A program made the position numbers and the translations under genes. From Fontimonas thermophila (GTDB lineage Bacteria; Pseudomonadota; Gammaproteobacteria; Nevskiales; Nevskiaceae), in assembly GCF_900113085.1 (NCBI RefSeq), contig NZ_FOOC01000006.1, positions 62,001 to 126,000 of the forward strand: a DNA stretch of 64,000 nucleotides. Reading direction: 5' to 3'. Position 1 is the first letter of the stretch. The number at the start of each line of letters is the position of its first letter. Positions 1-18,611 of the stretch are shown here, piece by piece. The notes beneath the pieces were generated by a model. That model had not been told where the DNA came from. It ran no database searches and was given only the letters and a program-made list of their open reading frames with translations.

Positions 1-2
1 GA

Positions 3-1730
<1,728 letters not shown>

Positions 1731-1743
1731 AGCTCGTCCGATC

Positions 1744-1777
1744 AGGTGGCACCCCCACGTGGGGTGCCACCTTTTTT
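1744..1777 (+). terminator. Rho-independent terminator of katG
   Basis: A perfect 12-bp stem (AGGTGGCACCCC pairing with GGGGTGCCACCT) with a 5-base loop is followed by six T. It lies 13 bases after the katG stop codon. Confidence 0.93.
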
Positions 1778-1905: not shown

Positions 1906-2340
1906 ATGACCGCTTCCAGCGACACGCCGCCGGTCTCCAAGCCCACACGCATCGCGCCGATCGTCACCCCCGACGCCAAGTTCTTCTGGGACGCCGCGGA
2001 CCGCGAGCAGTTCGTCGGCCAGAAGTGCGGTGACTGTGGCCGCTTCACGTTCCCGCCACGGCCGATGTGCCCGTTCTGTCACAGCCTCAAACGGCAGGAA
2101 GTACCCTTGTCCGGGCGCGGCACGGTGCATGCGTGGACGGTGCCGCGGCATCCGCAGCCCTTTGGGTTCAAGGAGGCGCCGATCGTCGCGGTGATCCAGC
2201 TCGAGGAAGGGATCCGCATGGTGTCCAATGTCGTCGGCATCGCTCCCGAGGACATGGTCATGGATCTGCCGGTCGAGGTGACCTTCGAGCCGACCATGAA
2301 CAACCACAAGGTGCCGGTGTTCAAGCCGCGCGCGCGATAG
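1906..2340 (+). CDS. DUF35 Zn-ribbon / OB-fold protein, likely partner of the adjacent thiolase-like aldolase
   Basis: A 144-residue protein with a rubredoxin-like zinc ribbon (CGDC, then CPFC 14 residues later) followed by an OB-fold; this is the DUF35/ChsH2 C-terminal architecture. Such proteins bind thiolase-superfamily enzymes: in actinobacterial steroid side-chain degradation the DUF35 domain of ChsH2 complexes with the aldolase Ltp2. Here it is free-standing, with no MaoC-type hydratase domain, and sits 9 bases upstream of an Ltp2-like gene, so the two probably form one complex. The frame is open upstream, but the ATG at 1906 gives a family-like N-terminus (MTASSDTPP); the upstream extension lacks family character. 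Confidence 0.88.
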   Translation: MTASSDTPPVSKPTRIAPIVTPDAKFFWDAADREQFVGQKCGDCGRFTFPPRPMCPFCHSLKRQEVPLSGRGTVHAWTVPRHPQPFGFKEAPIVAVIQLEEGIRMVSNVVGIAPEDMVMDLPVEVTFEPTMNNHKVPVFKPRAR

Positions 2341-2349
2341 GGACGGGAC

Positions 2350-3516
2350 ATGCCTCGTACATTCAAGGAAGCCGCGATTGCCGGCATCGGCGCAACCGAG
2401 TTCTCCAAGGCGTCCGGCCGCAGTGAGCTGCAGCTCGCCGCCGAATGCGCGCTCGCCGCCTGCCAGGATGCCGGTGTCGATCCGCACGAGATCGACGGCA
2501 TGATCACGTTCACGATCGACAACAGCGACGAGATCGGTCTTGCCCGCTGCCTCGGGGTCAAGGACCTCGCCTACACGACGCGCATTCCCGGCGGCGGCGC
2601 GGCCGCAGCGGCGACGATCGCGCAGGCGATGGCGGTGGTCAACGCCGGCCTGTGCAAGTACGTGCTGATCTGGCGCGCGATGAACGAGCGCAGCCAGTAC
2701 CGCTTCGGCCAGAATCCGACCAACCTGTCCGGCTACACCGGCGGCCACGGCACTGGTTCGCTCCTGTGGTGCATCCCCTTTGGCGCGATGACCCCGGCGA
2801 GCTGGGCGGCGTTGCAGGCCGCGCGCTACATGCATACCTACGGCATCACCAACCGCGATCTCGGGTATGTCTCGGTGCAGCAGCGCAAGTATGCGGCGAC
2901 CAATCCCAAGGCGTGGTTCTACCAGCGTCCGATCACGCTCGAGGATCACCAGAATTCCAAATGGATCCAGGAGCCCTGGCTGCGCCTGCTCGACTGCTGT
3001 CAGGAGTCCGATGGCGGGGTGGCCTTGCTCGTCACCAGCCTGGAGCGCGCGCGCGATCTCAAGCAGCCACCGGTGAGAATCGTCGGCGCCTGCCAGTCGA
3101 TTCCGTACAACGTCGAGGTCATCTCCAACTACTACCATGACGACTTGACGGTGATGCCGGAGGCCATCGGAACGGCCCGACGCCTGTATGCGCAGACGGG
3201 GCTGGGGCCAGCCGACATCCAGGCCGCGATGCTGTATGACGCCTTCACTCCGCACGTGCTGATGCAGCTCGAAGCCTTCGGTTTCTGCGGCAAAGGCGAG
3301 GCGGCGGAATTCGTCAAGCGCGGCGGGATTGCCATCGATGGCCGGCTGCCGGTCAACACGCATGGCGGGCTGATCGGCGAGGCCTACATCCACGGCATGA
3401 ACAGCATGGCCGAGGGGGTGCGCCAGGTGCGCGGCCAGTCCGTCAACCAGGTCAAGAACGTGACCCACGTGCTGGTTTCCTCCGGCATGGCCGGGGCGAT
3501 TCTGGGCAAGGCGTGA
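2350..3516 (+). CDS. Thiolase-superfamily protein (SCP-x / Ltp2-like aldolase type), catalytic cysteines absent
   Basis: A 388-residue thiolase-fold protein of the lipid-transfer-protein thiolase group. The place of the nucleophilic Cys is occupied by GGGAAAA (residues 81-87), and the C-terminal CxGMG Cys is replaced by Ser (SSGMAGA, near 377-383), so a classical thiolase reaction is unlikely. Tyr296 (LYDAFTP) and Tyr346 (GEAYIHG) have the same 50-residue spacing as the tyrosines I recall being assigned to catalysis in the steroid aldolase Ltp2 (Tyr294/Tyr344). I infer a retro-aldol cleavage of a beta-hydroxyacyl-CoA with the DUF35 partner encoded just upstream. The stop overlaps the start of the hydrolase gene. 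Confidence 0.85.
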   Translation: MPRTFKEAAIAGIGATEFSKASGRSELQLAAECALAACQDAGVDPHEIDGMITFTIDNSDEIGLARCLGVKDLAYTTRIPGGGAAAAATIAQAMAVVNAGLCKYVLIWRAMNERSQYRFGQNPTNLSGYTGGHGTGSLLWCIPFGAMTPASWAALQAARYMHTYGITNRDLGYVSVQQRKYAATNPKAWFYQRPITLEDHQNSKWIQEPWLRLLDCCQESDGGVALLVTSLERARDLKQPPVRIVGACQSIPYNVEVISNYYHDDLTVMPEAIGTARRLYAQTGLGPADIQAAMLYDAFTPHVLMQLEAFGFCGKGEAAEFVKRGGIAIDGRLPVNTHGGLIGEAYIHGMNSMAEGVRQVRGQSVNQVKNVTHVLVSSGMAGAILGKA

Positions 3517-4478
3517 AGGCCTGCCTCGAGCTGCGCTTCGATCCAGGCCCGTCCCCGGCGGACATCGCCGGGTTGCACGTCGCCGTTTCGGTCTGGCTGC
3601 CCGATGAACCACGTGCGGCGCGCACGCTGCTGGTCTGCCTGCCCGGCGGCAACATGAACCGCCGGTATTTCGATCTGCGAGCGGACGATGGCGACGATTC
3701 GTTTTCCTTCGCGGCGCAGATGACGGCGCGCGGCCATGTGGTCGCGGCGCTCGATCACCTCGGCCTTGGCGACAGCAGCAGGCCGGAGGATGGCTGGCAA
3801 CTGACGCCGGAGAGGCTCGTCGCCGCCAATGCGGCGGTGACGGCGCAGCTACAGGCGCGTCTGCGCGAAGGCCGGCTCGCTGCCGGCGTACCGGCGCTGC
3901 CGCATCTGCGCAGCGTCGGAGTCGGGCACTCGATGGGCGCGATGCTCACCGTGCTGCAGCAGCACGCTGCGCGCTCGCATGTTGCCGTCGTGCTGCTCGG
4001 GTTTTCCACGCGCGGCCTGCCGGAATATCTACCACCGGATTTGCGCACGCTCGCCGATCCGCGCGCCGTCCGTCCCCATCTGGTGGAATACGCGCGTCAG
4101 ATGTTCGGTCAGCCCTATCCCACGATCCATCGCGGCGGTCGCAGCGGCAACGCCGAGCTGTTCGGCAGCCGCAAGGCCGATCCGCGCGCAGTCGCCGCGC
4201 TCAAGGCGGCGACCGACTGCGTGCTGCCCGTGCCCGCGCTGATGTCGATGTTGCCGGGCAATGTCGCGCCCGAGGCGGCGGCGCTGGATGTCCCCGTTTT
4301 CCTCGGTATCGGGGAGCGCGACATGGTCGGCCCACCGCATGCCGTGCCGGCCGCGTTCACCGGCAGCGGCGACGTGACGCTCTACCTGCTGCCGGAGGCC
4401 GGACACAGCCACTTTCTGTTCCCTGCGCGCACGGCCTTGTTCGATCGCCTGTCCGTCTGGCTCGCCGGTCTGCCGTAA
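3513..4478 (+). CDS. Alpha/beta-fold hydrolase
   Basis: A 321-residue alpha/beta hydrolase with an oxyanion-hole segment CLPGG (42-46), nucleophile elbow GHSMG with Ser140 (138-142), a plausible acid in GERDMVG, and a catalytic His in PEAGHSHF near the C-terminus. There is no signal peptide, so it is cytoplasmic. The start is a GTG that overlaps the upstream thiolase stop (GTGA), which implies translational coupling. The gene position suggests thioester or ester hydrolysis of a product of the aldolase step; a lactonase or acyl-CoA thioesterase role is equally possible. Confidence 0.83.
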   Translation: MKACLELRFDPGPSPADIAGLHVAVSVWLPDEPRAARTLLVCLPGGNMNRRYFDLRADDGDDSFSFAAQMTARGHVVAALDHLGLGDSSRPEDGWQLTPERLVAANAAVTAQLQARLREGRLAAGVPALPHLRSVGVGHSMGAMLTVLQQHAARSHVAVVLLGFSTRGLPEYLPPDLRTLADPRAVRPHLVEYARQMFGQPYPTIHRGGRSGNAELFGSRKADPRAVAALKAATDCVLPVPALMSMLPGNVAPEAAALDVPVFLGIGERDMVGPPHAVPAAFTGSGDVTLYLLPEAGHSHFLFPARTALFDRLSVWLAGLP

Positions 4479-4612
4479 TACAACGCCGGGTGTGACCGCA
4501 GGCCAGGCACAGCAGAGCCGGCGCCTCATGCATGTGGACGGTGCGGCCACAGGCGTGCCATGCCTAGAGTCACACATACTTCGCATCGAACCATCCAGTG
4601 GAGAGACACGAC

Positions 4613-4927
4613 ATGCCAATGCCCCTCAAGGCCGGCGCGCGGCTCAAGAGCGCAGTCAGCGAGACGCAGGTCATGGTGGTGAAGGCTCCGCCCGGCGAAC
4701 ACGATCTGCGCTGCGGTGGCGTCGAGATGATCGCGGCAACGGCACCGCCGCCGGCCGGGGTGGCGCTCGACCCCGCGTATGCCGGCGAGACCTTGATCGG
4801 CAAGCGGTACGTCAATGCCGATGAGTCGCTCGAACTGCTGTGTACCAAGGGCGGCCAGGGCGTGCTGTCGTTCAATGGCACGCTGCTGGAGATCAAGCAG
4901 GCCAAGCAACTGCCGTCATCGGACTGA
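4613..4927 (+). CDS. Conserved small protein of unknown function
   Basis: A 104-residue protein I do not recognise. It begins MPMPLKAGARLKSAV and contains LRCGGVEM and VLSFNGTLLEIKQAK; it has no signal peptide or membrane segment. The predicted fold is beta-rich, with alternating hydrophobic strands and two Cys. The ATG at 4613 is preferred over one 15 bases upstream because GGAGAG lies about 8 bases ahead of it. It lies between the hydrolase and the acyl-CoA ligase, in the same direction. A substrate-binding or accessory role in that pathway is only a guess from position. Confidence 0.7.
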   Translation: MPMPLKAGARLKSAVSETQVMVVKAPPGEHDLRCGGVEMIAATAPPPAGVALDPAYAGETLIGKRYVNADESLELLCTKGGQGVLSFNGTLLEIKQAKQLPSSD

Positions 4928-5005
4928 TCCGCGCCCGCTGCCCATGATCGATGAAGGCTCGCGGCTGCGTCCACGTCGGGCTTTTTCCAGCGCACCCCTG
5001 CATCC

Positions 5006-6496
5006 ATGAACATCGCCACTATCCTCGACATGGCCGCCGAGGCTTTCGGCGAGCGCACCGCACTCGTCGCCGGCACGTCCCGCTACTGCTATGCCGACCT
5101 GCGCGCGCATGCGCTGCGTGCCGCGCGGATGTTCAAGGCCAGCGGCGCGGGATATGTCGCCCTGCTCGACGTCAACAGCCCGGCGGGGCCGGCCGCGCTG
5201 TTCGGCGCCGCCTACGCCGGGATCCCGTATGTGCCGATCAACTATCGGTTGACCCGCACCGAAATCAACGAGCTGCTCGGCCGGGTGGCCCCGGCGATCG
5301 TCGTCGTCGGGCCTGGGCAGCGGCCGCAGATCGATGAGCGTGCCGATCTGACGATCGTCGACCGCGATGACGTGCTCGCCCTCGCCGACACCGATGGCGA
5401 GCCGCCGGTGCCGCCGGAGGACGGGCGCGCGATCGCCGTGCAATTGTTCACGAGCGGCACGACCGGCAAGCCCAAGGCGGCGATCCTGCGGCACGAGAAC
5501 CTGATGAGCTACATCGTCGGCACCGTCGAATTCGCATCCGCCGACACCGACGATGCGATCATCGTCGCCGTGCCGCCGTACCACATCGCCGGCATCTCCG
5601 CGGTGCTCAGTTCCACCTACGCCTGCCGGCGCATGGTTCAGCTGGAGCGCTTCGATCCCGAGCTCTGGATCGAAACCGTGCGCCGCGAGCGCGTCACCCA
5701 TGCTTTTCTCGTGCCGACGATGCTGCAGCGGATCGTCGAGCAGCTGGAGGCTGGTGCATCGTCGATCGATCTGCCGACGCTGCGCGCGATCGCCTATGGC
5801 GGCGGCAAGATGCCGCTCGTGACGATCGAGAAGGCGATGCGCCTGCTGCCGCACGTCGATTTCACCAATGCCTACGGGCTGACCGAGACCAGCTCGACGA
5901 TTGCCGTCCTCACTCCCGAGGATCACCGCACGGCATTCGCCAGCCACGATCCGGCGATCCGCCGCCGGCTCGGCTCGGTGGGCAAGCCGGCGGCGGTCGA
6001 GATCCAGATCCGCGACGAGGCCGGCAAGGTGCTCGGCCCAGAGCAGGCCGGACTGGTGTTCGTACGCGGGCCGCAGGTGTCCGGCGAATACCTGGCGCTC
6101 GGCAGCCAGCTCGATGCCGACGGCTGGTTCCCGACCAAGGACCGCGGCTATATGGATGCCGACGGATATCTCTATCTCGACGGCCGTGCCGATGATGTCA
6201 TCGTCCGCGGCGGCGAGAACATCTCCCCCGGCGAGATCGAGGACGTGCTGCTCTCGCACCCTGCCGTCGCCGATGCCGTCTGCGTTGCGATGCCCGACGT
6301 GGAATGGGGCGAGGCGGTGGCCGCCGCCGTCGTGCTCAAGCCCGGCGCACAAGTGAGCGTCGCCGAGCTGCAGGAGCTGGTCCGCTCCAAGCTGCGCTCC
6401 TCGCGTGTGCCGCAGCGGATCGTCTTCAAGGACGCGCTCCCGTACAACGAAACCGGCAAGCTTCTGCGCCGCGTGATCCGGCAGGAATTCGCCTGA
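5006..6496 (+). CDS. Acyl-CoA synthetase (AMP-forming, class I adenylating enzyme)
   Basis: A 496-residue AMP-dependent ligase that activates a carboxylic acid to its CoA thioester through an acyl-adenylate. The P-loop-like motif TSGTTGKPK is at 149-157, the adenine-binding NAYGLTETSS follows, GRADDVIVRGGENISPGEIE marks the hinge, and the catalytic Lys is in the C-terminal ETGKLLRR. Length matches medium-chain or aromatic acyl-CoA ligases. In this cluster it probably supplies the CoA ester used by the aldolase, CoA-transferase and SRPBCC proteins. The substrate cannot be assigned; fadD-like steroid acid or fatty acid ligases are the closest functional idea. Confidence 0.92.
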   Translation: MNIATILDMAAEAFGERTALVAGTSRYCYADLRAHALRAARMFKASGAGYVALLDVNSPAGPAALFGAAYAGIPYVPINYRLTRTEINELLGRVAPAIVVVGPGQRPQIDERADLTIVDRDDVLALADTDGEPPVPPEDGRAIAVQLFTSGTTGKPKAAILRHENLMSYIVGTVEFASADTDDAIIVAVPPYHIAGISAVLSSTYACRRMVQLERFDPELWIETVRRERVTHAFLVPTMLQRIVEQLEAGASSIDLPTLRAIAYGGGKMPLVTIEKAMRLLPHVDFTNAYGLTETSSTIAVLTPEDHRTAFASHDPAIRRRLGSVGKPAAVEIQIRDEAGKVLGPEQAGLVFVRGPQVSGEYLALGSQLDADGWFPTKDRGYMDADGYLYLDGRADDVIVRGGENISPGEIEDVLLSHPAVADAVCVAMPDVEWGEAVAAAVVLKPGAQVSVAELQELVRSKLRSSRVPQRIVFKDALPYNETGKLLRRVIRQEFA

Positions 6497-6518
6497 TTTG
6501 CGCGCGTCTGGACGCATC

Positions 6519-6668
6519 GTGCGGACATGGACCACGGCCGGCTGTGAACAGGGACGCAAACGTGCGCTTGCCGAGGGTTTCCTGCTGCCGGAAGATGCCG
6601 CTGACCTGATGCAGCGCGCCCTGCGCGCCGCCAACCGCTGGCCGGTCGCGGGCGAACGAGCCTGCTGA
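6519..6668 (+). CDS. Possible small ORF in the ligase-SRPBCC gap
   Basis: A 49-codon frame starting with GTG encodes a protein-like stretch (ALAEGFLLPEDAADLMQR) with a balanced amphipathic helix pattern. There is no recognisable Shine-Dalgarno sequence. It could be a genuine micro-protein, a remnant of a decayed gene, or chance in GC-rich DNA. Confidence 0.2.
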   Translation: MRTWTTAGCEQGRKRALAEGFLLPEDAADLMQRALRAANRWPVAGERAC

Positions 6669-6695
6669 CCTGCTCCCATTCAAACCCGGATCGCC

Positions 6696-7157
6696 ATGTT
6701 TGTCATCGAAAAGACCGTCGAGATTTCGGCACCGCATACGATCGTCTGGGAGGTGATCACCGACCTTGCACGCTACCGGGAATGGAATCCGTTTTGCGTC
6801 GAATGCCGATCGACGCTCAAGCCGGGGGATCCGATCGACATGTGGGTCAAGCTGCGCGACAAGCCGCAGTTTCAGCGCGAATGGATGCTCGAATACGTCG
6901 AGGGGCGGCGTTTTGCGTACCGCATGAAGCCGGTGCCGGGCGGTGCGCTGTCGAGCCTGCGCTCCCACGATGTTGAGCCGCTCGGCGATGCGCGCACGCG
7001 CTACCGCTCGTATTTTCATCTGAAGGGTTGGCTGCGCTTTCTCGTGCTGGCCTTGTTCAAGCGCCGGCTCGAAACCGGATTCGCGGAGATGACCGCGGCC
7101 ATCGAGGCCCGCGCGGTGGCACTGTGGGCACAGCGGCGGCAGACGAAGACGGCCTGA
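6696..7157 (+). CDS. SRPBCC (START-like) family protein
   Basis: A 153-residue protein of the polyketide cyclase/dehydrase SRPBCC fold: N-terminal VEISAPHTIVWEVITDLARY, then WNPFCVECR, alternating strands and a long C-terminal helix. These domains form a deep cavity for hydrophobic ligands. No catalytic residue can be assigned. The next gene overlaps it by 34 bases, so the two are co-transcribed. A role in binding or carrying the hydrophobic pathway intermediate is an inference from fold and context. Confidence 0.85.
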   Translation: MFVIEKTVEISAPHTIVWEVITDLARYREWNPFCVECRSTLKPGDPIDMWVKLRDKPQFQREWMLEYVEGRRFAYRMKPVPGGALSSLRSHDVEPLGDARTRYRSYFHLKGWLRFLVLALFKRRLETGFAEMTAAIEARAVALWAQRRQTKTA

Positions 7158-8488
7158 GCGCACGCGCCTACGCGCAGGGTCTGCTCGACGAGCTCGGTGT
7201 CACCCCGCTGCGGCCACTGGCCTGCACTGAGGAAGACCCGGCGCTGGCGTGGGCGCGCAGCGGGCTGATGGCCCTCACCGGACGCGCCGATGGGCCGCCC
7301 GTGCTTTGCCCGGTGGCGATTCCGACTTGCGCGGACGGCGCGCTCGCCGCCCTGGCGAGTCTTGCTCCGGATGGCGCGCTCGCCGGATTGCGCGGGGCCG
7401 CATTGCTCGTCGAGCGCGCCGCCATCGCCGGCTACACGCGGCACGGCGCAATCGCCCCCGGCGGTGGGTGTCGTCTGCTGCCCACGCGCGACGGCTGGCT
7501 CGCGCTCAATCTCGCGCGTACCGACGACTGGAGCCTGCTGCCGGCCTGGCTCGAAACCGAAGTCGCCACCGACTGGGAAAGCCTCGCCGCGGCAGTGCGC
7601 ACGCGCACGCTGCACGATGCGATCGAACGCGGCCGCCTGCTGGGCCTGGCGGTTGCGCCCGTGGTGCCGCCGTGGCGCCGGCCGCAACCATGGTTCCAGC
7701 GCATGGTGCCTGGAGGCACGGGGCGAAAACCCCGCGGGCGGCGGCCGCGGGTCGTCGATTTGTCGTCGCTGTGGGCCGGACCGCTCGCCACCCATTTGTT
7801 GCAGCACTGCGGTGCCGAGGTCATCAAGGTCGAGAGCCTGACGCGCCCCGACGGCGCGCGTGGCGGGCCGCCGGCATTTTTCGATCTGCTCAACGCCGGC
7901 AAGCACAGTGTCGCGCTCGATTTCGGCAGCGCGCGTGACCGCGCGCGGCTGCGCACGCTGCTCGAACACGCCGACATCGTCATCGAGGCCTCGCGTCCGC
8001 GCGCCTTGCGCCAGCTCGGCATCGATGCCGAGGCACTGGTCCGCGAACGGCCGCACCTGAGCTGGATTAGCCTGACCGGTTACGGCCGCAGCGAGCCTGC
8101 GGCCCAGTGGATCGCTTACGGCGATGATGCCGCCACCGCCGCCGGGCTGGTCTGGCTGATGCAGCAGACCACCGGCGAGCCTCTGTTCGTCGGCGATGCG
8201 ATCGCCGATCCCTTGAGCGGGATGCATGCCGCGCTCGCCGCCTGGGCCGGCTGGTGCGCCGGCGGCGCAGGCTTGCTGTCGATCGCACTGGTCGATGTCG
8301 TGCGCCGGGTGGTGCGCTTTGCTGCGCCGCCATCCGCCGCGGGCTGGCGCGAGCGGGCGCAGCGATGGCGCGGGCGCATCGCCGGCGAGCCGGTGCGCGC
8401 ACCGCAGGCGCGCAGGCCCACGGCCGCAGCCCGACCGCTCGGTGCCGACACGGCGCACGTGTTCGATGCGCGGGGGTGCACATGCTGA
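7124..8488 (+). CDS. CaiB/BaiF (family III) CoA-transferase with permuted-looking domain order
   Basis: About 454 residues. The canonical family III N-terminus (RVVDLSSLWAGPLATHLL, then GAEVIKVE) begins only after about 200 residues. The preceding part resembles the middle and C-terminal half of a usual CaiB (ARSGLMALTGRADGPP; HGAIAPGGG; PTRDGWLAL). The second part ends at a region resembling the catalytic-Asp strand (GLLSIALVDVV). The order is therefore C-half then N-half, either a circular permutation or a remnant of a tandem fusion. The family moves CoA between carboxylic acids, or racemises 2-methylacyl-CoA. The GTG start at 7124 lies inside the SRPBCC gene; an upstream frame extension looks non-coding. 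Confidence 0.8.
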   Translation: MGTAAADEDGLSARAYAQGLLDELGVTPLRPLACTEEDPALAWARSGLMALTGRADGPPVLCPVAIPTCADGALAALASLAPDGALAGLRGAALLVERAAIAGYTRHGAIAPGGGCRLLPTRDGWLALNLARTDDWSLLPAWLETEVATDWESLAAAVRTRTLHDAIERGRLLGLAVAPVVPPWRRPQPWFQRMVPGGTGRKPRGRRPRVVDLSSLWAGPLATHLLQHCGAEVIKVESLTRPDGARGGPPAFFDLLNAGKHSVALDFGSARDRARLRTLLEHADIVIEASRPRALRQLGIDAEALVRERPHLSWISLTGYGRSEPAAQWIAYGDDAATAAGLVWLMQQTTGEPLFVGDAIADPLSGMHAALAAWAGWCAGGAGLLSIALVDVVRRVVRFAAPPSAAGWRERAQRWRGRIAGEPVRAPQARRPTAAARPLGADTAHVFDARGCTC

Positions 8489-9954
8489 TCCGCAATGTCG
8501 AGCTTGCGCCGGGTGAACGAATCGATGTGCGTATCGACGGCGCACGCATCGCTGAACTGGCGCCGCAACTGGCTTGGCACGCGCAGGAGCGCGTGTTCGA
8601 GGGCGGCGGTGCGGCCCTGTTGCCGGGGCTGCACGATCATCACATCCATCTGCGCGCACTCGCCGCCGCGTTTGCATCGGTCCACTGCGGTCCGCCGCAG
8701 GTGACGGATGCTGCTGCGCTCGCGGCGGTGTTGCGCGCTGCGAGTATCCGCCTTGCGCCGGGGCAGTGGTTGCGCGGCATCGGGTTCTGCGAGTCGGTGC
8801 TGGGTGCGGCCGGCATCGATGCCATCGACCGCGACTGGCTCGATGAACTCGTTGCCGATCGCCCGCTGCGCATCCAGCACCGCAGTGGCCGGCTCTGGCT
8901 GCTCAACAGCGCGGCGCTCGATGCATTGGCGCCGACGGCCGACGCGCCGCTGGAGCGCCGCAACGGGCGCTGGACCGGGCGGCTCTACGATGCCGACGAC
9001 TGGCTGAGGATGCGTCTGCGCGGTGCGCCGCCGAGTCTGCATGCGGTGAGCCGCTGGCTCGCGCGGCGCGGGGTGACCGGGGTCACCGATACCACGCACC
9101 ATAACGGGCCGGAGGCACTGCATGCTTTTGCCGCCGCACGCGCCAGCGGCGAGCTGTTGCAGCAGGTGCGCGTGATGGGCGATGCCCGGCTCGATGCGCA
9201 GACAGATCGGCCCGGAGCGCAGCGCGGCGAACACAAATTCCACCTGCATGCGCACGCGCTGCCGGAATTCGATGCCCTGGTCGCGGCCATCCGCGCGAGT
9301 CATGACGCCGGTCGCGCCGCGGCCTTCCACTGCGTGACCCGCACCGAGCTGGCCTTTGCGCTCGCAGCCCTGCGCGAAGCCGGTGTGTTGCCCGGGGATC
9401 GTATCGAGCACGCCTCGGTCGCGCCGCCAGAGCTCGTCGAGGTCATCGCCGCGCTCGGGTTGACGGTCGTCACCCAGCCGCATTTCATTGCCGAGCGCGG
9501 TGACGACTATCGCCGCGATGTCGATGCCGCGGATCAGCCATGGCTGTACCGCCTGCGCGGCTTTCTCGCTACCGGCGTCGGGCTTGCCGGCAGCACCGAT
9601 GCGCCGTTTGGCAGCGCCGATCCCTGGGCCGCGATGCAGGCCGCGATCGACCGGCGCACGCCCTCCGGCGCCGTGCTCGGCGCGGCGGAGGCACTGACGC
9701 CGGCACAGGCGCTGGACTTGTTTCTCGCTCCGCTCGAGGCGCCGGGTGGCGCGCCGCGGCGCGTCGCTGTCGGTGAGCCTGCCGATCTGTGCCTACTCGA
9801 TCGTCCGCTCGCTGCGGCGCTGCGGGCGCCGACGCAGGTCGAGGTGCGCTTGACGCTCGTCGCCGGTCAGGTGGTGTACACGCGGGAGGACGCCGACGTG
9901 CCGGACTATCCGCGCGGCAGCAGCGGCATGCCCGAAAGCCAGGGGTGCGCATAG
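8482..9954 (+). CDS. Metal-dependent amidohydrolase (YtcJ-like, amidohydrolase_3)
   Basis: A 490-residue TIM-barrel amidohydrolase. It has an N-terminal beta-sandwich strand set, the metal motif HDHHIHL, a probable bridging Lys in EHKFHLHAH, further ligands in FHCVTRTE and RIEHAS, and the terminal Asp in GSTDAPFG. The C-terminal part returns to the sandwich (VGEPADLCLLD). The ATG overlaps the CoA-transferase stop by 7 bases. Substrate unknown; relatives hydrolyse N-formyl or N-acyl amides. The last 49 bases overlap the convergent nnrU-like gene antisense, which is unusual. Confidence 0.85.
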   Translation: MLIRNVELAPGERIDVRIDGARIAELAPQLAWHAQERVFEGGGAALLPGLHDHHIHLRALAAAFASVHCGPPQVTDAAALAAVLRAASIRLAPGQWLRGIGFCESVLGAAGIDAIDRDWLDELVADRPLRIQHRSGRLWLLNSAALDALAPTADAPLERRNGRWTGRLYDADDWLRMRLRGAPPSLHAVSRWLARRGVTGVTDTTHHNGPEALHAFAAARASGELLQQVRVMGDARLDAQTDRPGAQRGEHKFHLHAHALPEFDALVAAIRASHDAGRAAAFHCVTRTELAFALAALREAGVLPGDRIEHASVAPPELVEVIAALGLTVVTQPHFIAERGDDYRRDVDAADQPWLYRLRGFLATGVGLAGSTDAPFGSADPWAAMQAAIDRRTPSGAVLGAAEALTPAQALDLFLAPLEAPGGAPRRVAVGEPADLCLLDRPLAAALRAPTQVEVRLTLVAGQVVYTREDADVPDYPRGSSGMPESQGCA

Positions 9955-10704: not shown

Positions 10705-11715
10705 ATGGGTGCCATCGATCTCAAGCAGTTACTCGAATCGCAGACCTTGGAGCGTTGTCCGTTCCCGATTCCGGTCGGCTGGTTTTTCATCGACTATGCG
10801 GACACGCTCAAGCCCGGCGAGATGCGCAACGTCTTCGTCTTCGACCAGGAATGGGTGCTGTTCCGTACCGAATCCGGCAAGCCGGGAATGGCGGATCCGT
10901 ACTGTCCCCATCTGGGTGCCCACATGGGCCATGGCGGCAAGGTCTGCGGCGAGCATCTGCGCTGTCCGTTCCACCACTGGGAGTACGACACGGCCGGCTG
11001 GTGCAGGCACATCCCCTACGCCAAGCTGATGCCGCCGCAAACCAAGAAAGGCCCGATCCTGCGCACGCTGCCGATGGTCGAGAAGTACGGCATGTTGTGG
11101 GCTTGGTATCACCCGCAGTGCGAGCCGCCGAGCTTCGAGCTGCCGTACATCCCGGAAATGGAAGATCCGACCGGGTATGCCGGTACGCGCCGCGGCACCT
11201 GGACCGCGCATACCTGCATCCAGGAGATCGCCGAGAACGGCGTTGATACCGCGCACCTGAAATTCCTGCACGGCGCACCGGCGATCCCACCGGTAGAGGC
11301 GACGTACGAGGGTCCGATCATGAAGCTCGACATCGGTCGCGGCTATATCGTCGGTACCGCCTATGGGCCGGGACTCAATGTCATGCGCTTCACACAGCAA
11401 GGCGTGACCGCGACGATGATTTCGTACTCGGTGCCGATCACCCGGGAAAAGACGCAGATGAACATGTCGTTCCGTCACGTCGATTACCCAGAGGGCTCCA
11501 AAGAGCTGGCGATCTCCAAGAAGCTCATCGATCACATGATCGGCGCCGCCGAGGGCGAGGAGAGCGCCGGCTTCGAATCCGTCGATTTCATCGTCTGGAA
11601 CCACAAGAAATACCGTCCCAATCCGCTGCTGTGCGACGGTGACGGGCCGGTTCTGCAGTTCCGCAAGTGGTTCAAGCAGTTCTACCCGGGATTCGAACCC
11701 GCGGCGCAGGGCTGA
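10705..11715 (+). CDS. Rieske-type non-heme iron oxygenase, KshA/DAF-36-like
   Basis: A 336-residue terminal oxygenase. The Rieske [2Fe-2S] ligands are C67-P-H69 and C87-P-F-H90; the mononuclear iron motif is N178, D181, H184 and H189 in ENGVDTAHLKFLHG. This spacing and the YCPHLGAHMGHGG segment are typical of 3-ketosteroid 9alpha-hydroxylase (KshA) and cholesterol 7-desaturase relatives rather than aromatic-ring dioxygenases. The ATG at 10705 has GGAGAG about 9 bases upstream. It hydroxylates or desaturates a hydrophobic substrate with electrons from a ferredoxin and reductase; a ferredoxin gene follows, but no reductase is nearby. Confidence 0.9.
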   Translation: MGAIDLKQLLESQTLERCPFPIPVGWFFIDYADTLKPGEMRNVFVFDQEWVLFRTESGKPGMADPYCPHLGAHMGHGGKVCGEHLRCPFHHWEYDTAGWCRHIPYAKLMPPQTKKGPILRTLPMVEKYGMLWAWYHPQCEPPSFELPYIPEMEDPTGYAGTRRGTWTAHTCIQEIAENGVDTAHLKFLHGAPAIPPVEATYEGPIMKLDIGRGYIVGTAYGPGLNVMRFTQQGVTATMISYSVPITREKTQMNMSFRHVDYPEGSKELAISKKLIDHMIGAAEGEESAGFESVDFIVWNHKKYRPNPLLCDGDGPVLQFRKWFKQFYPGFEPAAQG

Positions 11716-11783: not shown

Positions 11784-12107
11784 ATGGCAGTGGTCCGTGT
11801 CACCGGTCGCGATGGCGTCGAGCGCAGGCTCGACGCCACCAATGGCTGCGCGCTCATGGAAGCCTTGCGCGACGCCAACACCGGCATCGACGGTACCTGC
11901 GGCGGCATGATGTCCTGCGGCACCTGCCACGTGTACGTCGATGCCGACTGGCTGGCCAAGCTGCCTCCCAAGAGCGAGGACGAGCAGATGATGCTCGATG
12001 CAATCGGTGAGCTGGTCGAGCTCGAGCCCGGCTCGCGGCTGTCCTGCCAGATTCAGGTCAGCGAGGCCCTCGAAGGACTGTCCATCCGCATCGCGCCGCC
12101 GGTCTGA
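11784..12107 (+). CDS. Adrenodoxin-type [2Fe-2S] ferredoxin
   Basis: A 107-residue ferredoxin with cluster ligands C39, C45 and C48 (C-x5-C-x2-C) and C88 (RLSCQI). The family passes electrons to cytochromes P450, and some members serve Rieske oxygenases. It sits between the Rieske oxygenase and the TetR-P450 pair, so either could be its partner. The ATG at 11784 lies 68 bases after the oxygenase stop and gives the usual family length. Confidence 0.93.
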   Translation: MAVVRVTGRDGVERRLDATNGCALMEALRDANTGIDGTCGGMMSCGTCHVYVDADWLAKLPPKSEDEQMMLDAIGELVELEPGSRLSCQIQVSEALEGLSIRIAPPV

Positions 12108-12200: not shown

Positions 12201-12977
12201 ATGCGTGCCGCAGCCCAGCGCACACTGCCCGTGCAGACGCCAGCGCCCCGCGTCGGTCGGCCACCGCGGGTCAGCGCCCAGGCGATCATCGAGGCCGCCA
12301 TCGCGATCGGTCTGGAGGGGGTCACGCTCAAGCAAGTGGCCGACCGGCTGGGTGTGGCCGTCGCGACGCTCTATCGCCATGTGCGCAACCGCGACGAGCT
12401 GGTGCGTCTGGCAGCCTTTCGCATTGCATTGACGCGGCGTCTGCCGCAGGCCGACCAGAACCGGCCGATGCACTGGTCACAGATCGCGATCGGCTATGCC
12501 GAGAGCCTGTTCGAATCCTTCGTGCGCGAGCCGCAACTGCTCTACGAACTGACCAAGGGGCGGCTCGGCCCCGATGTCGAAGTCGATTTTCTCGAGCAAT
12601 TTCTCGCCGCGCTTGCCGCGCATGGATTTTCCGCAGACGAGGGCATCCGTCTGCACCATGCGATCGCGATGCTCGCGATCGGCGCCAGCGCCGGTGCACT
12701 GGCGGTCAGCGCCTGCGCCGCGGCCGGCGAGCCGCTCGATGCGGCGATGCGGCGCGCACTGGCCGAGCGCGACCGGCACGAACTGCCGCACCTGCGCAGC
12801 GCGATCGACGCGTACACGAATGTCGATCCGCGGCAATGGTTGTTTGCCTTGCGTGCCTTGCTCGCCGGTATCGCGCTCGCGCGCGGTGAGACGCTGCCGC
12901 CATGGGATGACCGATTCTCGTCCCCGACCCCAACACCGCCGCCGGCGTCGCCGGTGGATGTCAGGAGCCCGTCATGA
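12201..12977 (+). CDS. TetR-family transcriptional regulator with TetR-type C-terminal domain
   Basis: A 258-residue regulator. The N-terminal helix-turn-helix (GVTLKQVADRLGVAVATLYRHV) follows a basic arm (GRPPRVSAQ). The rest is helical and ligand-binding, ending in a proline-rich tail. The ATG at 12201 is chosen; upstream residues are not family-like. The stop overlaps the P450 start by 4 bases (ATGA), so regulator and P450 are translationally coupled and the regulator probably responds to the P450 substrate or product. Confidence 0.88.
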   Translation: MRAAAQRTLPVQTPAPRVGRPPRVSAQAIIEAAIAIGLEGVTLKQVADRLGVAVATLYRHVRNRDELVRLAAFRIALTRRLPQADQNRPMHWSQIAIGYAESLFESFVREPQLLYELTKGRLGPDVEVDFLEQFLAALAAHGFSADEGIRLHHAIAMLAIGASAGALAVSACAAAGEPLDAAMRRALAERDRHELPHLRSAIDAYTNVDPRQWLFALRALLAGIALARGETLPPWDDRFSSPTPTPPPASPVDVRSPS

Positions 12978-14695: not shown

Positions 14696-16066
14696 ATGAA
14701 ATTCAAACTGGTTTTCGCGGTCGGGGTGCTCGTCGGCGGATTTTGCATCCCCCTGCAGCAGGCATCGGCCAAGGTGTCGCCGGAAAAGGCCGCTGAGCTG
14801 GACGGCCCCAAGTACACCTGCATGGGCGCCGAGCGCGCTGGCAGTCCGAGCGGCATTCCTGAATACACCGGTAAATGGGTCGGCAAATGGCCCGGCATGA
14901 CCAAGCCCTATGGCTACGAGCCAGGTCCGTACGCCGATGAAAAACCGCTGTTCAAGATCACCGCGCAGAACATGGCGCAGTACGAGGACAAGCTGACCGA
15001 AGGTCAGAAGGCCTTGCTCAAGCAGTATCCCGACTCGTACTACATGTACGTCTATCCCAGCCACCGCGACTTCGGCTTCCAGAGCTGGGTCTGCGACACG
15101 GCCAAGAAAAACGCGGTCGAAGCCGAGCTGATCGACGATGGCCTGGGGGTGAAGGGCACCGGCGGTGCGATCCCGTTCCCCTTTCCGGCCAATGGCACCG
15201 AGGCGGTCTGGAACATCATCAATCCGCATCGTGCATGGACCGAGAAGGCGGTCTGCGACATCGCCGACGTTTACGCCAACGGCAGCATCGCCTGGGGACG
15301 CAACAAGTTCATGACGATGAACCTGATGAACGATCCCAACGTGCGCCGTTCATACACCGAAAAGATCAACGCCTATTTCTACACCAGCTATCTGCTGCCC
15401 GAGCGCGACAAAGGTTTCACCGGCGTTGGCTTTCAGCCCAACAACTTCAAGACCGACGCGACCCAGGCCTGGCAGTACCAGCCGGGCATCCGCCGCGTGC
15501 GCCAGGCTCCGGAAGTCTGCTGTGATTACCCGGTGCCACCTGCCGGGTTGCGCACGGTCGATGACGACTATCTCTTCAACGGATCGCCCGAGCGCTATAC
15601 CTGGAAGCTGGTGGGCAAAAAAGAAATGTACGTTCCTTACCACAACTTCAAGGTCAACGATCCGGCGATCAAGTACAAGGATTTGATCAAACCCAACACG
15701 ATCAATCCCGAGTATGTGCGCTACGAGCTGCACCGCGTCTGGATCGTCGAGGGGTATTTGCGCGAGGGGTACCGCCATATCTACAGCAAGCGGCGGCTGT
15801 ATGCCGACGAGGACACCTGGTTGGTTCTTTGGGCAGATAACTACGATGCGCGCGGCCAGCTCTGGCGGACCTCCTTCGTGAACTATTTCTACTCGCAGGA
15901 ATCTGCCGCTTTCCATCGTGGAGTCTCGGTCTACCACGATTTGACGGCGAAAGCTTACGAGGCTGGCTATCTGGTTAACGAGCGCGGTGAAGACTGGTGG
16001 CGGATCAATATCCCGCTCACGCCCGCGATGTTCAGCCCGCAGGCCGCGGCGCGCGCAGGTCACTGA
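14696..16066 (+). CDS. Secreted DUF1329 protein
   Basis: A 456-residue exported protein: charged start MKFK, a hydrophobic core (LVFAVGVLVGGFCI) and a probable cleavage after QASA. The mature part is the DUF1329 domain, which has a LolA/LolB-like open beta-barrel fold expected to hold lipophilic ligands. GAGGAGAG stands just upstream of the ATG. DUF1329 genes are frequent in proteobacterial clusters for hydrocarbons, steroids and other hydrophobic substrates, so transport or binding of substrate in the periplasm or at the outer membrane is a reasonable inference. It is not a lipoprotein: no lipobox Cys near the cleavage site. Confidence 0.9.
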   Translation: MKFKLVFAVGVLVGGFCIPLQQASAKVSPEKAAELDGPKYTCMGAERAGSPSGIPEYTGKWVGKWPGMTKPYGYEPGPYADEKPLFKITAQNMAQYEDKLTEGQKALLKQYPDSYYMYVYPSHRDFGFQSWVCDTAKKNAVEAELIDDGLGVKGTGGAIPFPFPANGTEAVWNIINPHRAWTEKAVCDIADVYANGSIAWGRNKFMTMNLMNDPNVRRSYTEKINAYFYTSYLLPERDKGFTGVGFQPNNFKTDATQAWQYQPGIRRVRQAPEVCCDYPVPPAGLRTVDDDYLFNGSPERYTWKLVGKKEMYVPYHNFKVNDPAIKYKDLIKPNTINPEYVRYELHRVWIVEGYLREGYRHIYSKRRLYADEDTWLVLWADNYDARGQLWRTSFVNYFYSQESAAFHRGVSVYHDLTAKAYEAGYLVNERGEDWWRINIPLTPAMFSPQAAARAGH

Positions 16067-16139: not shown

Positions 16140-17006
16140 ATGGCGACGAAGAACGCATTCATCACCGGCTGCAACGTCGGACAGGCCAACCTGCTCGCCA
16201 AGGCGCTCGTGCAGCGCGGCTGGCGTGTGTTCGCCGGCGTGCTGCCGGGCGCACCCACGGATCTGAAGACGGGCGGAAATCTGACCGTCGTCGATCAGGA
16301 CGTCTCCAACACCGAGTCGGTGCGCCGCAGCGCCGAGATCGTCACGGAGGCGCTTGGCGGCGAGGGGCTGGATCTGCTGATGAACGTCGCCGGTGTCGCC
16401 AACATCGCCGTCGGGGTTCTCGAAGGGGTGGATCTGGCACAGGCGGAGCGGCTGTTTCACATCAACACCTTCGGTCAGCTGCGCGTGATCCAGGCCTTCC
16501 TGCCGCTGCTGCGCAAGAATGCTCCGGGGTCGCGCATCGCCAACTACAGCTCCGGCGCGATCATCGCCAACCCGGTCGGCGCTGGCATCTACAACATGAC
16601 CAAGCACGCGATTCACGGCATGACGCTGACCCTGCGTCACGAGCTGGCGCCGTTCGGCATCCAGGTGACGTCCATCGTGCCGGGCGGCGTGCTCACCGGA
16701 ATGTCCGCGAATGCGCACGAGAACACCCGGAAAAGCTGGGCCAGCCAGCCCGCGGAGATCCAGAAAATCTACGAGCCGCTGCGCCCGGTCATGTGCCAGG
16801 TGCTGCCCGACATGCTCGAAAAGACCGGTAGCACGCCGGAACAGGCGCTCGAAGGCACGCTGGCGATCCTCGACAAAAAGACGTGGGCGCCGATGGAGTA
16901 CCTGGGCAAGGACGTCAAGCCGATGGGGCTGATGCGCCGGATTTTCTCCGATCGCCAGCTCGAGGCGATCATGCGCCGGACGTTCAAGATTCCGGCGCAT
17001 GCCTAA
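16140..17006 (+). CDS. Short-chain dehydrogenase/reductase
   Basis: A 288-residue SDR with an unusual nucleotide motif TGCNVGQ (9-15, normally TGxxxGxG), NVAG at 82-85, and the catalytic Ser138, Tyr151 and Lys155 (YNMTK). The extended C-terminus has Lys/Arg-rich helices (MGLMRRIFSDRQLEAIMRR). It should oxidise an alcohol or reduce a ketone with NAD(P). The ATG at 16140 is preferred to the one at 16131 because the AGAGGGGG Shine-Dalgarno ends next to the latter. It lies between DUF1329 and an aldehyde dehydrogenase. Confidence 0.9.
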   Translation: MATKNAFITGCNVGQANLLAKALVQRGWRVFAGVLPGAPTDLKTGGNLTVVDQDVSNTESVRRSAEIVTEALGGEGLDLLMNVAGVANIAVGVLEGVDLAQAERLFHINTFGQLRVIQAFLPLLRKNAPGSRIANYSSGAIIANPVGAGIYNMTKHAIHGMTLTLRHELAPFGIQVTSIVPGGVLTGMSANAHENTRKSWASQPAEIQKIYEPLRPVMCQVLPDMLEKTGSTPEQALEGTLAILDKKTWAPMEYLGKDVKPMGLMRRIFSDRQLEAIMRRTFKIPAHA

Positions 17007-17111: not shown

Positions 17112-18611
17112 ATGAACGCCGTACTCAAGGAGTCGAACCGCTTTCGCACACTGTTCGACCGGCTGCAGACGCGCGTGCATGCGCTGGCGCTGACCAGCGC
17201 CGAGGAGCGTGCCGACAAGATCCGCCGCCTGCTCAAGGCCACGCTCGAAGCGCGGCCCGCGATCCTCGCCGCGGCCCACAAGGAGCTGCGCGTCAATGAA
17301 ACCGACGTCGATGCACAGCTGCTGATGATCAAGTCGGAAGCCGAGTTCATCACGCGCAACCTGGCGGTGTGGATGGCGCCGCAACCGGTGCAGGGTTCGC
17401 TGATGACGCTCGGCAAGAAGTGCTACATCCGCTACGAGCCCAAGGGCGTCGTGCTGCATCTTTCGACCTGGAATGCGCCGATCGCCGAGGCCTTCGTCAT
17501 GGCCTATGGTGCGATCGCGGCAGGATGCACCTTCGTGCTCAAGCCGTCGGAACTGGCGCCGCATTCGGCACAGGTGCTCGCCGATATCTGCGCCAAGGTC
17601 TTGCCCGAAGACGAGCTGGCCGTCGTCAATGGCGGCGCGGATGTCGCCACCGAGCTGCTGCAGCTGCCGTTCAACCATATTTTCTACATTGGCGGGCATC
17701 AGGTTGGCCGCATCGTCATGCGCGCGGCGGCCGAGCATTTCGCGACCGTGACCCTGGAGATGGGCGGCAAGAATCCGGTGATCGTCGATGCCAGCGCCGA
17801 TCTCGACGAAGCCGGGCGCAAGATCGCCTGGGGGCGTGTGGCCAATGCCGGTCAGGTGTGCCTTGCGCCGGATTACGCCCTGGTGCATGCCAGCATCGTC
17901 GATGCTTTCGTCGCCGCACTCGCTCGGCATATGACCGCGATGTACAACGCCGATGGCCGGGGCTTCCAGCGCTCACCCGATCTGCCGCGCATCGTCAACC
18001 GTCGGCATTTCGATCGCATCAAGGCCTTGCTCGACGATGCGCTCGACAAGGGCGCGAAGCTCGAATTCGGCGGCGACACCGATGCCGACGATCTCTACAT
18101 CGCGCCGACCATCCTCACGTCGGTGACCGAAGACATGCGCATCATGCAGGAGGAAATCTTCGGGCCGATTCTTTGCGTGCTGCCGTTCAACGAGCGCGAG
18201 GAGGCGATCGCGACGATCCGGCGCCGGCCCAAGCCGCTGGGGGCCTACATCTTTGCCAAGGACCGTGCGGCGATCGACTGGTTCATGGCGCGCACGACCT
18301 CGGGCAGCTTGGTCGTCAATCACAACCTCATTCAGTCCGGCACCAATCCGCACCTGCCGTTTGGCGGCGTCAATGCCAGCGGTATAGGCCGGGTTGGCGG
18401 ACGCGCCACGTTCCTGGAGTGCTCGAATGCGCGCTCGGTCGTCGAGGATCAGTATCCGGCCGGCGATCCTAACATCATGTTCCCGCCGTATTCGGACAAA
18501 TACAAAAAGATGATCGCGCAGATGCTCGCCAAGGAAATCCGCGTGCCGGATGCGGCGATCGATCTCATCAACGGCATCATCAAACTCACCAGCGTGTTCA
18601 AGCGCCGGTAA
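17112..18611 (+). CDS. Aldehyde dehydrogenase (class 3 / coniferyl-type), copy 1
   Basis: A 499-residue NAD(P)-dependent aldehyde dehydrogenase. Catalytic Cys250 is in NAGQVCLAPDY, the general base Glu216 in TLEMGGKNP, and the oxyanion Asn121 in STWNAPI (usual PWNYP altered). GAGGAGG is just upstream of ATG 17112. The C-terminal tail (IAQMLAKEIRVP then LINGIIKL) is longer than in soluble class 3 enzymes and could associate with membranes, as in fatty aldehyde dehydrogenases. It converges with the TetR gene. It probably oxidises an aldehyde formed by the P450 and SDR steps. Confidence 0.93.
   Translation: MNAVLKESNRFRTLFDRLQTRVHALALTSAEERADKIRRLLKATLEARPAILAAAHKELRVNETDVDAQLLMIKSEAEFITRNLAVWMAPQPVQGSLMTLGKKCYIRYEPKGVVLHLSTWNAPIAEAFVMAYGAIAAGCTFVLKPSELAPHSAQVLADICAKVLPEDELAVVNGGADVATELLQLPFNHIFYIGGHQVGRIVMRAAAEHFATVTLEMGGKNPVIVDASADLDEAGRKIAWGRVANAGQVCLAPDYALVHASIVDAFVAALARHMTAMYNADGRGFQRSPDLPRIVNRRHFDRIKALLDDALDKGAKLEFGGDTDADDLYIAPTILTSVTEDMRIMQEEIFGPILCVLPFNEREEAIATIRRRPKPLGAYIFAKDRAAIDWFMARTTSGSLVVNHNLIQSGTNPHLPFGGVNASGIGRVGGRATFLECSNARSVVEDQYPAGDPNIMFPPYSDKYKKMIAQMLAKEIRVPDAAIDLINGIIKLTSVFKRR

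Follow-up and report, generated by a model that had tools for sequence, protein, structure and literature searches.

The closest described systems to the aldolase pair of the locus presented here are two kinds of aldolases acting on steroid side chains, i.e., the Ltp2 type of actinobacteria and Comamonas and the Sal-Shy type, which acts on bile acids. In the Ltp2 of Thermomonospora curvata (TcLtp2), Tyr294 is the base and Tyr344 the acid, and replacing the His of a YDHF motif causes a modest 14-fold drop; the zinc ribbon of Shy is C3H1, the other DUF35 proteins compared being C4 (PMC12329534, in excerpt). Here, we analyse a block of eight genes found in Fontimonas thermophila, in a stretch of 64,000 nucleotides (nt) of contig NZ_FOOC01000006.1 (the whole stretch is hereafter called the window). 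These genes code for a DUF35 protein, an Ltp2-like aldolase, an alpha/beta hydrolase, a small protein (SMALL), an AMP-forming acyl-CoA ligase (LIG), an SRPBCC protein, a family III CoA-transferase (CoAT*) and an Amidohydro_3 metal-dependent hydrolase (AmdH3). Judging from sequence comparisons, we consider it likely that the block serves the side chain within a larger supercluster for steroid catabolism, and that the DUF35-Ltp2 pair would carry out a retro-aldol cleavage. This reading draws on the contiguity of the block with ring-degradation genes in a relative, on the co-distribution of KstD-like genes and Ltp2, on the identity of the Ltp2-like protein, its Tyr pair and the C4 ribbon of its partner, and on a genomic prediction made for Hydrocarboniphaga.

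The aldolase pair and the conservation of the block

The closest solved relative of the Ltp2-like protein is TcLtp2 itself (PDB 6ok1, E=1.6e-134; next best, 3.2e-51), and the protein scores 539 bits with NCBIfam PRK07855, against a cut-off of 469. Its Tyr296 and Tyr346 align with the base and acid Tyr of TcLtp2 and do not vary in any of the 16 aligned rows; the motif of the acid Tyr, GE[AG]YIH, was parsed in 35 of 36 sequences. A truncated Ltp2, that of relative G021, was left out of alignment A2. The first-pass annotation had called this thiolase fold Cys-less, which is literally wrong, as the protein contains several cysteines; the claim could concern only the thiolase nucleophile, and residues 84-88 are a run of Ala, in an alignment that includes no thiolase with a marked nucleophile. 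The zinc ribbon of the DUF35 protein is C4 (Cx2Cx10Cx2C), which speaks against the Sal-Shy type; C4 being the common type, it is not specific for Ltp2-ChsH2. Taken together, the Tyr/Tyr pair and the C4 ribbon argue for an Ltp2-type aldolase. Hence, our best reading from sequence is a retro-aldolase of the steroid C17 side chain with a changed oxyanion-hole residue, and the predicted enzyme is more like the C3-side-chain enzyme than like the bile-acid enzyme.

All eight open reading frames (ORFs) lie on the plus strand at 1906-9954, in the order and direction given by the first-pass annotation. It had also described overlaps or short gaps between them, which is true of the overlaps and of the 9-nt gap, but not of the three longer gaps (consecutive spacings are 9, -4, 140, 78, 199, -34 and -7 nt). 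Several start codons are uncertain. Seven of the eight proteins, all but SMALL, have Pfam matches over cut-off.

We searched for CoAT* in 41 genomes, at the levels of the genome itself, its genus, family and order. A strong match (best E < 1e-80) was obtained in 28 of them, the 13 others giving generic matches only. Among the 27 strong-match relatives, regions of 20 to 40 kb were examined in 19, and 14 of these contain all eight genes. In the five incomplete ones, we did not find AmdH3 (G023), SRPBCC (G024), the DUF35-Ltp2-hydrolase trio around CoAT* (G001 and G009), or this trio together with SMALL and LIG around CoAT* (G015). SMALL served as an independent handle. It has 214 relatives in the genome collection, of which the best 80 were used for all the counts of SMALL loci given in this text, with linkage and presence thresholds that we set ourselves; L115, L127, L136, L143 and L144 were scored by tblastn and ORF lists alone. 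The genera represented include Solimonas, Sinimarinibacterium, Hydrocarboniphaga, Nevskia, Stagnimonas and Panacagrimonas. When Nevskiales-like loci with a full 20 kb are considered, 14 of 22 hold all eight genes, and 17 of 22 at least seven. Alignment A3 comprises 39 of the 80 SMALL loci plus the window, and alignment A4 comprises 27 of 54 CoAT* sequences plus the window.

We also observed other genes inside the block of some relatives (L059-L060, L049-L052), i.e., between LIG and CoAT* in G024 (RND-efflux-like, as we read them) and between the hydrolase and SMALL in G006 and G008; these interruptions mark insertion-prone joints. Such insertions, and the 78 to 199 nt that separate some of the genes, could speak for a chance run of eight unrelated genes. 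This explanation is nevertheless extremely improbable: it is contradicted by the synteny counts (14/19 and 14/22), which rule it out. By the same counts, the eight genes do co-occur in other genomes, the failure of which the first-pass annotation had named as the refutation of its own proposal. On sequence grounds, we regard them as a genuine, conserved part of a larger gene set for steroid degradation.

Steroid ring genes in the genome and in relatives

The genome from which the window comes is an assembly of 2.73 Mb in 28 contigs. Contig C16 carries a KstD-like gene, a KshA gene (KshA_C, 205 bits) and a FadD3-family ligase gene (744 bits, over cut-off). Contig C8 carries an HsaC-like dioxygenase gene with neighbours matching CoA_trans and NMO (both by Pfam only), a crotonase (PRK07938) and a thiolase (PRK07801), the last two over cut-off; from their family matches, we read these four as putative IpdA (CoA_trans), IpdC (NMO), EchA20 and FadA6. 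The same contig further holds a tandem family III CoA-transferase (853 aa), an Amidohydro_2 protein, an MMPL protein and a MaoC protein of 151 aa. This ring-degradation cluster also codes for another Ltp-like protein, the second of the genome (PRK06059, over cut-off), accompanied by a DUF35-type gene of its own (L163:17920-19535). Judging from family matches, a steroid gene set of the 9,10-seco type (KstD, KshA, HsaC, FadD3, IpdAB and IpdC-type) is present in the genome.

A single stretch of about 67 kb in relative G024 brings together orthologs of seven block genes and steroid ring-degradation genes; beside the seven, it holds orthologs of the KstD-like, FadD3-family, HsaC-like, CoA_trans, NMO, thiolase, MaoC, MMPL and tandem CoA-transferase genes. 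The counterparts of this stretch sit on three contigs (C16, C8 and C25) in the genome of the window. The tandem CoA-transferase gene directly precedes DUF35 in G024, and the KstD gene is cut by the edge of the examined stretch; SRPBCC and the C16 KshA gave no match in it. The key steroid genes had been reported as absent from the window. Indeed, the block has neither MaoC nor KstD, but a KshA_C-type Rieske gene is present in the window at 10705-11715. Since MaoC, KstD-like, KshA and HsaC-like genes are found elsewhere in the genome, the block is not an orphan. The statement that no matching pathway could be named cannot be kept for the block as a whole, given the 9,10-seco-type set of the genome and the contiguity seen in G024 (KshA excepted).

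The distribution of these genes over the 41 genomes points in the same direction. KstD-like matches of at least 575 bits are found in 27 genomes, none of the 41 exceeding the curated KstD cut-off, and an Ltp2 ortholog (at least 638 bits) is present in 26 of these 27 against none of the other 14. The exception, G022, is a draft in 280 contigs in which SMALL was not found either. G036 has SMALL, ECH* (a crotonase-like protein discussed below) and CoAT* (with two TGA inside), a weaker KstD-like match (459 bits) and no Ltp2 ortholog.

The substrate of a block of this composition could also be an acid other than a steroid, for instance a terpenoid acid or an aryl- or cycloalkyl-branched propionate, degraded by a CoA-dependent deacylation like that of the ibuprofen ipfDEF genes. 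The ipf layout comprises a stand-alone DUF35 protein, a thiolase-like protein, a ligase and an oxygenase, which the block resembles, and one Rhodococcus stretch carrying the five-protein set described below has genes annotated as mhpA/mhpB-type. The contiguity of the block orthologs with steroid ring genes in G024 and the co-distribution of Ltp2 with KstD-like genes make it an unlikely explanation. A steroid side-chain function agrees with a prediction of steroid degradation made from genomes in the genus Hydrocarboniphaga (PMC4810484, in excerpt), and our Hydrocarboniphaga locus (L074) has all eight block genes. No report of growth of Nevskiales on steroids was found in the open-licence PMC texts, available in part.

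A recurrent set of five proteins

Beyond Nevskiales, we observed that SMALL, LIG, ECH*, CoAT* and AmdH3 recur together, often incompletely, in Acidimicrobiales, Pseudomonadales, Sphingomonadales and on Rhodococcus plasmids. SMALL has no family match in Pfam or NCBIfam and no match among PDB sequences up to E=1. Its model is predicted to be all-beta, with a predicted local distance difference test (pLDDT) value of 95.2; Foldseek gave no match at E<=0.001 (best 0.66), and a second look returned three chains only (Z 2.0-2.1). For a predicted model, a missing fold match in the PDB does not amount to a new fold. To our eye, the two halves of the model look alike (strands 8-32 and 63-85). Of the 68 loci in which both genes were found, 67 have SMALL and LIG on the same strand and no more than 600 nt apart; in 12 of the 80, some of them short, no ligase match was found. 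The closest PDB relatives of LIG are feruloyl-CoA synthetase and FadD13. One Pseudomonadales locus (L146:10345-12246) codes for a ligase that bears a fused glyoxalase (VOC) domain at its C-terminus, and L124, L126, L129 and L133 have ligase ORFs of about the same length (632-635 aa). In L113, hydantoinase A and B genes (2096-6591) are found on the opposite strand, upstream of SMALL, and both families recur in L118.

The CoA-transferase had been described as permuted-looking, an impression that profile alignment (hhalign) against 32 full-length canonical templates bears out and sharpens. Residues 42-182 of CoAT* correspond to canonical positions 137-310 (score 68.7, against a maximum of 18.6 in 40 column shuffles), residues 207-399 to positions 8-205 (the C-part taken by itself scoring 268.5) and the tail, 431-453, weakly to 347-369 (31.4). 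The shuffle controls concern the N-part, whose match was not seen in hhalign with 10 or 2 template sequences. Because the segments match canonical 137-310 and then 8-205, the protein reads, by sequence, as a copy without the large domain fused to a copy without the small domain. Its model (pLDDT 94.2) superposes on the family III enzyme 4ed9 (VIA Z 21.5, root-mean-square deviation 3.0, 248 aligned residues, ranges 83..451 and 2..379), and racemases match the fold at Z 17-18; in the alpha-methylacyl-CoA racemase MCR, the catalytic His is His126. Asp362, located in the second copy, is invariant in 28 rows and aligned to the Frc Asp169-type Asp. If CoAT* was assembled in this way, out of two copies that each lost a half, it illustrates in nature how circular permutation can arise by way of duplication. 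CoAT* and AmdH3 lie within 300 nt in 30 of the 31 loci having both; the PDB relatives of AmdH3 are weak (3icj and 3igh).

ECH* may have a similar origin, the signal being weak: over just 37 columns, its N-part reaches a score of 31.9, the best shuffle giving 18.3. A clean permutation was rejected for this protein, as the expected C-terminal match (17.7) is not above shuffles. Its catalytic half has both Glu positions in 21 of 21 sequences (presumably E144/E164). In the genome of the window, ECH* is on contig C19 (L179, ORF ending at 2406) beside a putative acyl-CoA dehydrogenase gene, and the same pair is found in L180. Over the 41 genomes, ECH* occurs in the same 28 as CoAT* (in G028 in two pieces) and is not linked to the block. 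We found no description of permuted CoA-transferases or crotonases, or of this block, in the open-licence PMC literature accessible in part; the term "circular permutation" appears in one related paper of that literature, devoted, by its title, to enzyme convergence.

The non-Nevskiales SMALL loci number 45, some of them short, and 24 have a full 20 kb. The full-length loci contain the ligase (19), ECH* (20), CoAT* (16), AmdH3 (9) and Ltp2 (2). All five set members are present in four of these 24 and in five of all 45, and four or five members in 25 of the 45. Within the DNA examined, AmdH3 was not found in the Acidimicrobiales loci, nor CoAT* in most of the Pseudomonadales-type loci. In 72,556 plasmid records, CoAT* matches 15 and SMALL 17; 14 records have both, mostly related Rhodococcus megaplasmids, and the two genes can be far apart. 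A run of about 24 kb on Rhodococcus opacus pRop44186_a carries ligase, SMALL, dehydrogenases, thiolase, two OB-fold/zinc-ribbon proteins, an Ltp-like protein (40% identical), two CoA-transferases, P450, ferredoxin, ECH*, CoAT* and amidohydrolase. The stretches examined in Rhodococcus sp. DK180 and R. erythropolis X5 hold, respectively, all five set members with no Ltp2 match, and SMALL and the ligase as the only ones of the five. In Sphingobium RAC03, the neighbours of CoAT* are, by annotation, an amidohydrolase and an enoyl-CoA hydratase.

Several of our observations weigh against a steroid side-chain function of the whole block. The KstD-like and HsaC-like genes score below their curated cut-offs (604 bits against 788, and 284 against 450, respectively). 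The aldolase has YDAF in place of YDHF, Ala298 replacing the His of TcLtp2; among 36 sequences, this motif is YDAF in 28, YEAF in four, YDNF in three and unparsed in one, i.e., the third residue is Ala in 32 and Asn in three. Since the effect of replacing this His is modest in TcLtp2, we treat the window protein as a variant rather than as a strict Ltp2 member. The acyl-CoA dehydrogenase and MaoC hydratase of an igr-type operon (ChsE1E2, ChsH1H2, Ltp2) were not found among the eight genes. The 19 regions were all selected for carrying CoAT*, and the 41 genomes represent one order, so that the co-distribution is not independent evidence for each genome. The block can split, as the trio (in G015 also SMALL and LIG) is away from CoAT* in G001, G009 and G015, which carry Ltp2 elsewhere. 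Finally, Ltp2 is present in only 3 of the 45 non-Nevskiales SMALL loci, and a KstD-family match better than 1e-40 is missing from 19 of the 45 genomes, mostly drafts, with many Gammaproteobacteria/Pseudomonadales and Acidimicrobiales among them, so that KstD is not needed for the set.

These last two figures, set against the 25 loci with four or five set members, could mean that two modules lie side by side, the DUF35-Ltp2-hydrolase trio for steroid side chains and the five-protein set for a separate, more general pathway acting on another polycyclic or branched carboxylic acid, the two having become neighbours in steroid degraders by recruitment only. We give this possibility somewhat less than even weight; as regards the aldolase, it is compatible with the steroid side-chain reading. 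The absence of linkage between ECH* and the block in Nevskiales, and the DK180 set with its missing Ltp2 match, also speak for it. Against it, L143 combines the trio with the set, as does L115 except for AmdH3, the set and an Ltp-like protein share one run on pRop44186_a, and 27 of the 28 genomes with both CoAT* and ECH* have a KstD-like match of at least 575 bits. More doubtful to us is a bolder proposal, in which the five proteins would form an undescribed CoA-thioester module, spread across phyla and serving, complete or not, several catabolic pathways for polycyclic isoprenoids; two of its enzymes would derive from tandem duplication and reciprocal loss, SMALL would be an obligate, MbtH-like partner of LIG, and the module would perform a ring- or lactone-opening step new to the known steroid pathways. 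In any case, SMALL, CoAT*, ECH* and AmdH3 are a defined, testable protein set recurring together from Nevskiales to Rhodococcus plasmids.

Surroundings, proposed steps and known systems

The features of the region are given in Table 1. A terminator-like hairpin between katG and the block is probably the upstream border of the block; seven such patterns occur in the region, against 4.1 (standard deviation 2.0) in shuffles. The GC content of the 2-kb bins of the block ranges from 0.667 to 0.718, against 0.606-0.718 in the whole window, its last bin being the highest and the others ordinary. No tRNA gene, looked for with the idea of a horizontal island, was found in the 64-kb window. Downstream, the Rieske oxygenase is 30% identical to the C16 KshA and is the second KshA_C-type protein of the genome. 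Its orthologs are found in four of the 19 relatives' regions, in some other loci and in the G024 steroid stretch, and it is possibly part of a wider module. Further downstream (24443-25894) lies a wax ester synthase/DGAT gene with orthologs in three other relatives' regions.

Table 1. Features of the eight-gene block and its surroundings (window coordinates)
Feature	Position	Strand	Basis or remark
Terminator-like hairpin and T tail behind katG	1744..1772	+	12-pair stem, 9 G-C, then TTTTT; pattern match only
DUF35 / ChsH2 C-terminal-like subunit, stand-alone	1906..2340	+	Pfam PF01796, PF12172 over cut-off
Ltp2-like aldolase, thiolase fold (PRK07855)	2350..3516	+	PDB 6ok1, NCBIfam
Alpha/beta hydrolase	3513..4478	+	Pfam PF12697; GTG start; overlaps aldolase gene by 4 nt
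SMALL, 102 aa, no family, predicted all-beta	4619..4927	+	Pfam/NCBIfam without match
AMP-forming acyl-CoA ligase (LIG)	5006..6496	+	Pfam PF00501, PF13193
SRPBCC / Polyketide_cyc2 protein	6696..7157	+	Pfam
Family III CoA-transferase (CoAT*)	~7124..8488	+	Reads as two reciprocally truncated copies; start uncertain, TTG 7028 or GTG 7124
Amidohydro_3 metal-dependent hydrolase (AmdH3)	~8482..9954	+	Pfam; overlaps CoAT* by 7 nt
Rieske oxygenase, KshA_C domain	10705..11715	+	Pfam
2Fe-2S ferredoxin adjoining Rieske gene	11784..12107	+	Pfam
Candidate TetR-type regulator (our reading)	12231..12977	+	Orthologs clustered from 8/19 relatives' regions
Cytochrome P450	12974..14251	+	Nearest solved include EpoK, vitamin D3 25-hydroxylase
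DUF1329 protein	14696..16066	+	Orthologs in most relatives' regions examined
Short-chain dehydrogenase	16140..17006	+	
Aldehyde dehydrogenase	17112..18611	+	

The gene content and conservation of the block, its contiguity with ring genes in a relative and the catalytic residues can be read directly from the sequences; we infer every reaction, the precise identity of the substrate and what SMALL, SRPBCC, CoAT*, AmdH3 and the alpha/beta hydrolase do. For the order of steps, the C22 route of Comamonas and Mycobacterium serves as the model (PMC12502768, in excerpt). LIG would convert a steroid side-chain acid into its CoA thioester, probably with the help of SMALL. Two enzymes encoded outside the block, a dehydrogenase and a hydratase (the latter being MaoC on C8 or ECH* on C19), would then give the beta-hydroxyacyl-CoA, which the DUF35-Ltp2 pair would cleave by a retro-aldol reaction, releasing a short acyl-CoA and leaving a 17-ketosteroid. 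CoAT* and the C8 tandem CoA-transferase may move CoA between acids, the hydrolases may open esters or lactones, and SRPBCC, MMPL and DUF1329 may handle the hydrophobic substrate. Finally, the ketosteroid would enter a ring pathway of the KstD/KshA/HsaC/IpdAB type. The suggestion of side-chain activation and cleavage made by the first-pass annotation thus stands as the best reading of genes that do co-occur elsewhere, except that the part formed by SMALL, the CoA-transferase and the amidohydrolase has no named reaction. This places an orphan-looking block within proteobacterial steroid side-chain degradation; in our judgement, the genes of non-actinobacterial degraders of the sterol type are less known.

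Compared with the family III (CaiB/Frc) CoA-transferases, CoAT* shares the large domain and the Asp at the Frc Asp169-type position, but its domain order differs, the small domain coming first and from a second, degenerate copy. ECH* shares with the enoyl-CoA hydratases of the crotonase family the catalytic half and its two Glu; unlike them, it is missing the C-terminal part and has an N-terminal extension weakly similar to an inner crotonase segment. SMALL recalls the MbtH-like partners of adenylating enzymes, both being small and nearly always beside an adenylate-forming enzyme; SMALL is longer, and the likeness is one of size and gene position. As for the aldolase, the pair has in common with the actinobacterial Ltp2-ChsH2 (6ok1) and with ORF43/ORF40 of Comamonas testosteroni TA441 (PMC12502768, in excerpt) the thiolase fold, the DUF35 partner and the base and acid Tyr. 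It differs from Ltp2-ChsH2 by its DUF35 protein, which stands alone instead of being fused to MaoC, by YDAF for YDHF, and by the absence of adjoining genes of the ChsE/ChsH type. With the Sal-Shy bile acid aldolase it shares a thiolase fold and a DUF35 partner in Proteobacteria; Sal, on the contrary, has a YDCY motif with a catalytic Cys (Tyr302/Cys304) and a Gln replacing the second Tyr, and Shy its C3H1 ribbon (PMC12329534, in excerpt), whereas the window pair combines Tyr/Tyr with C4.

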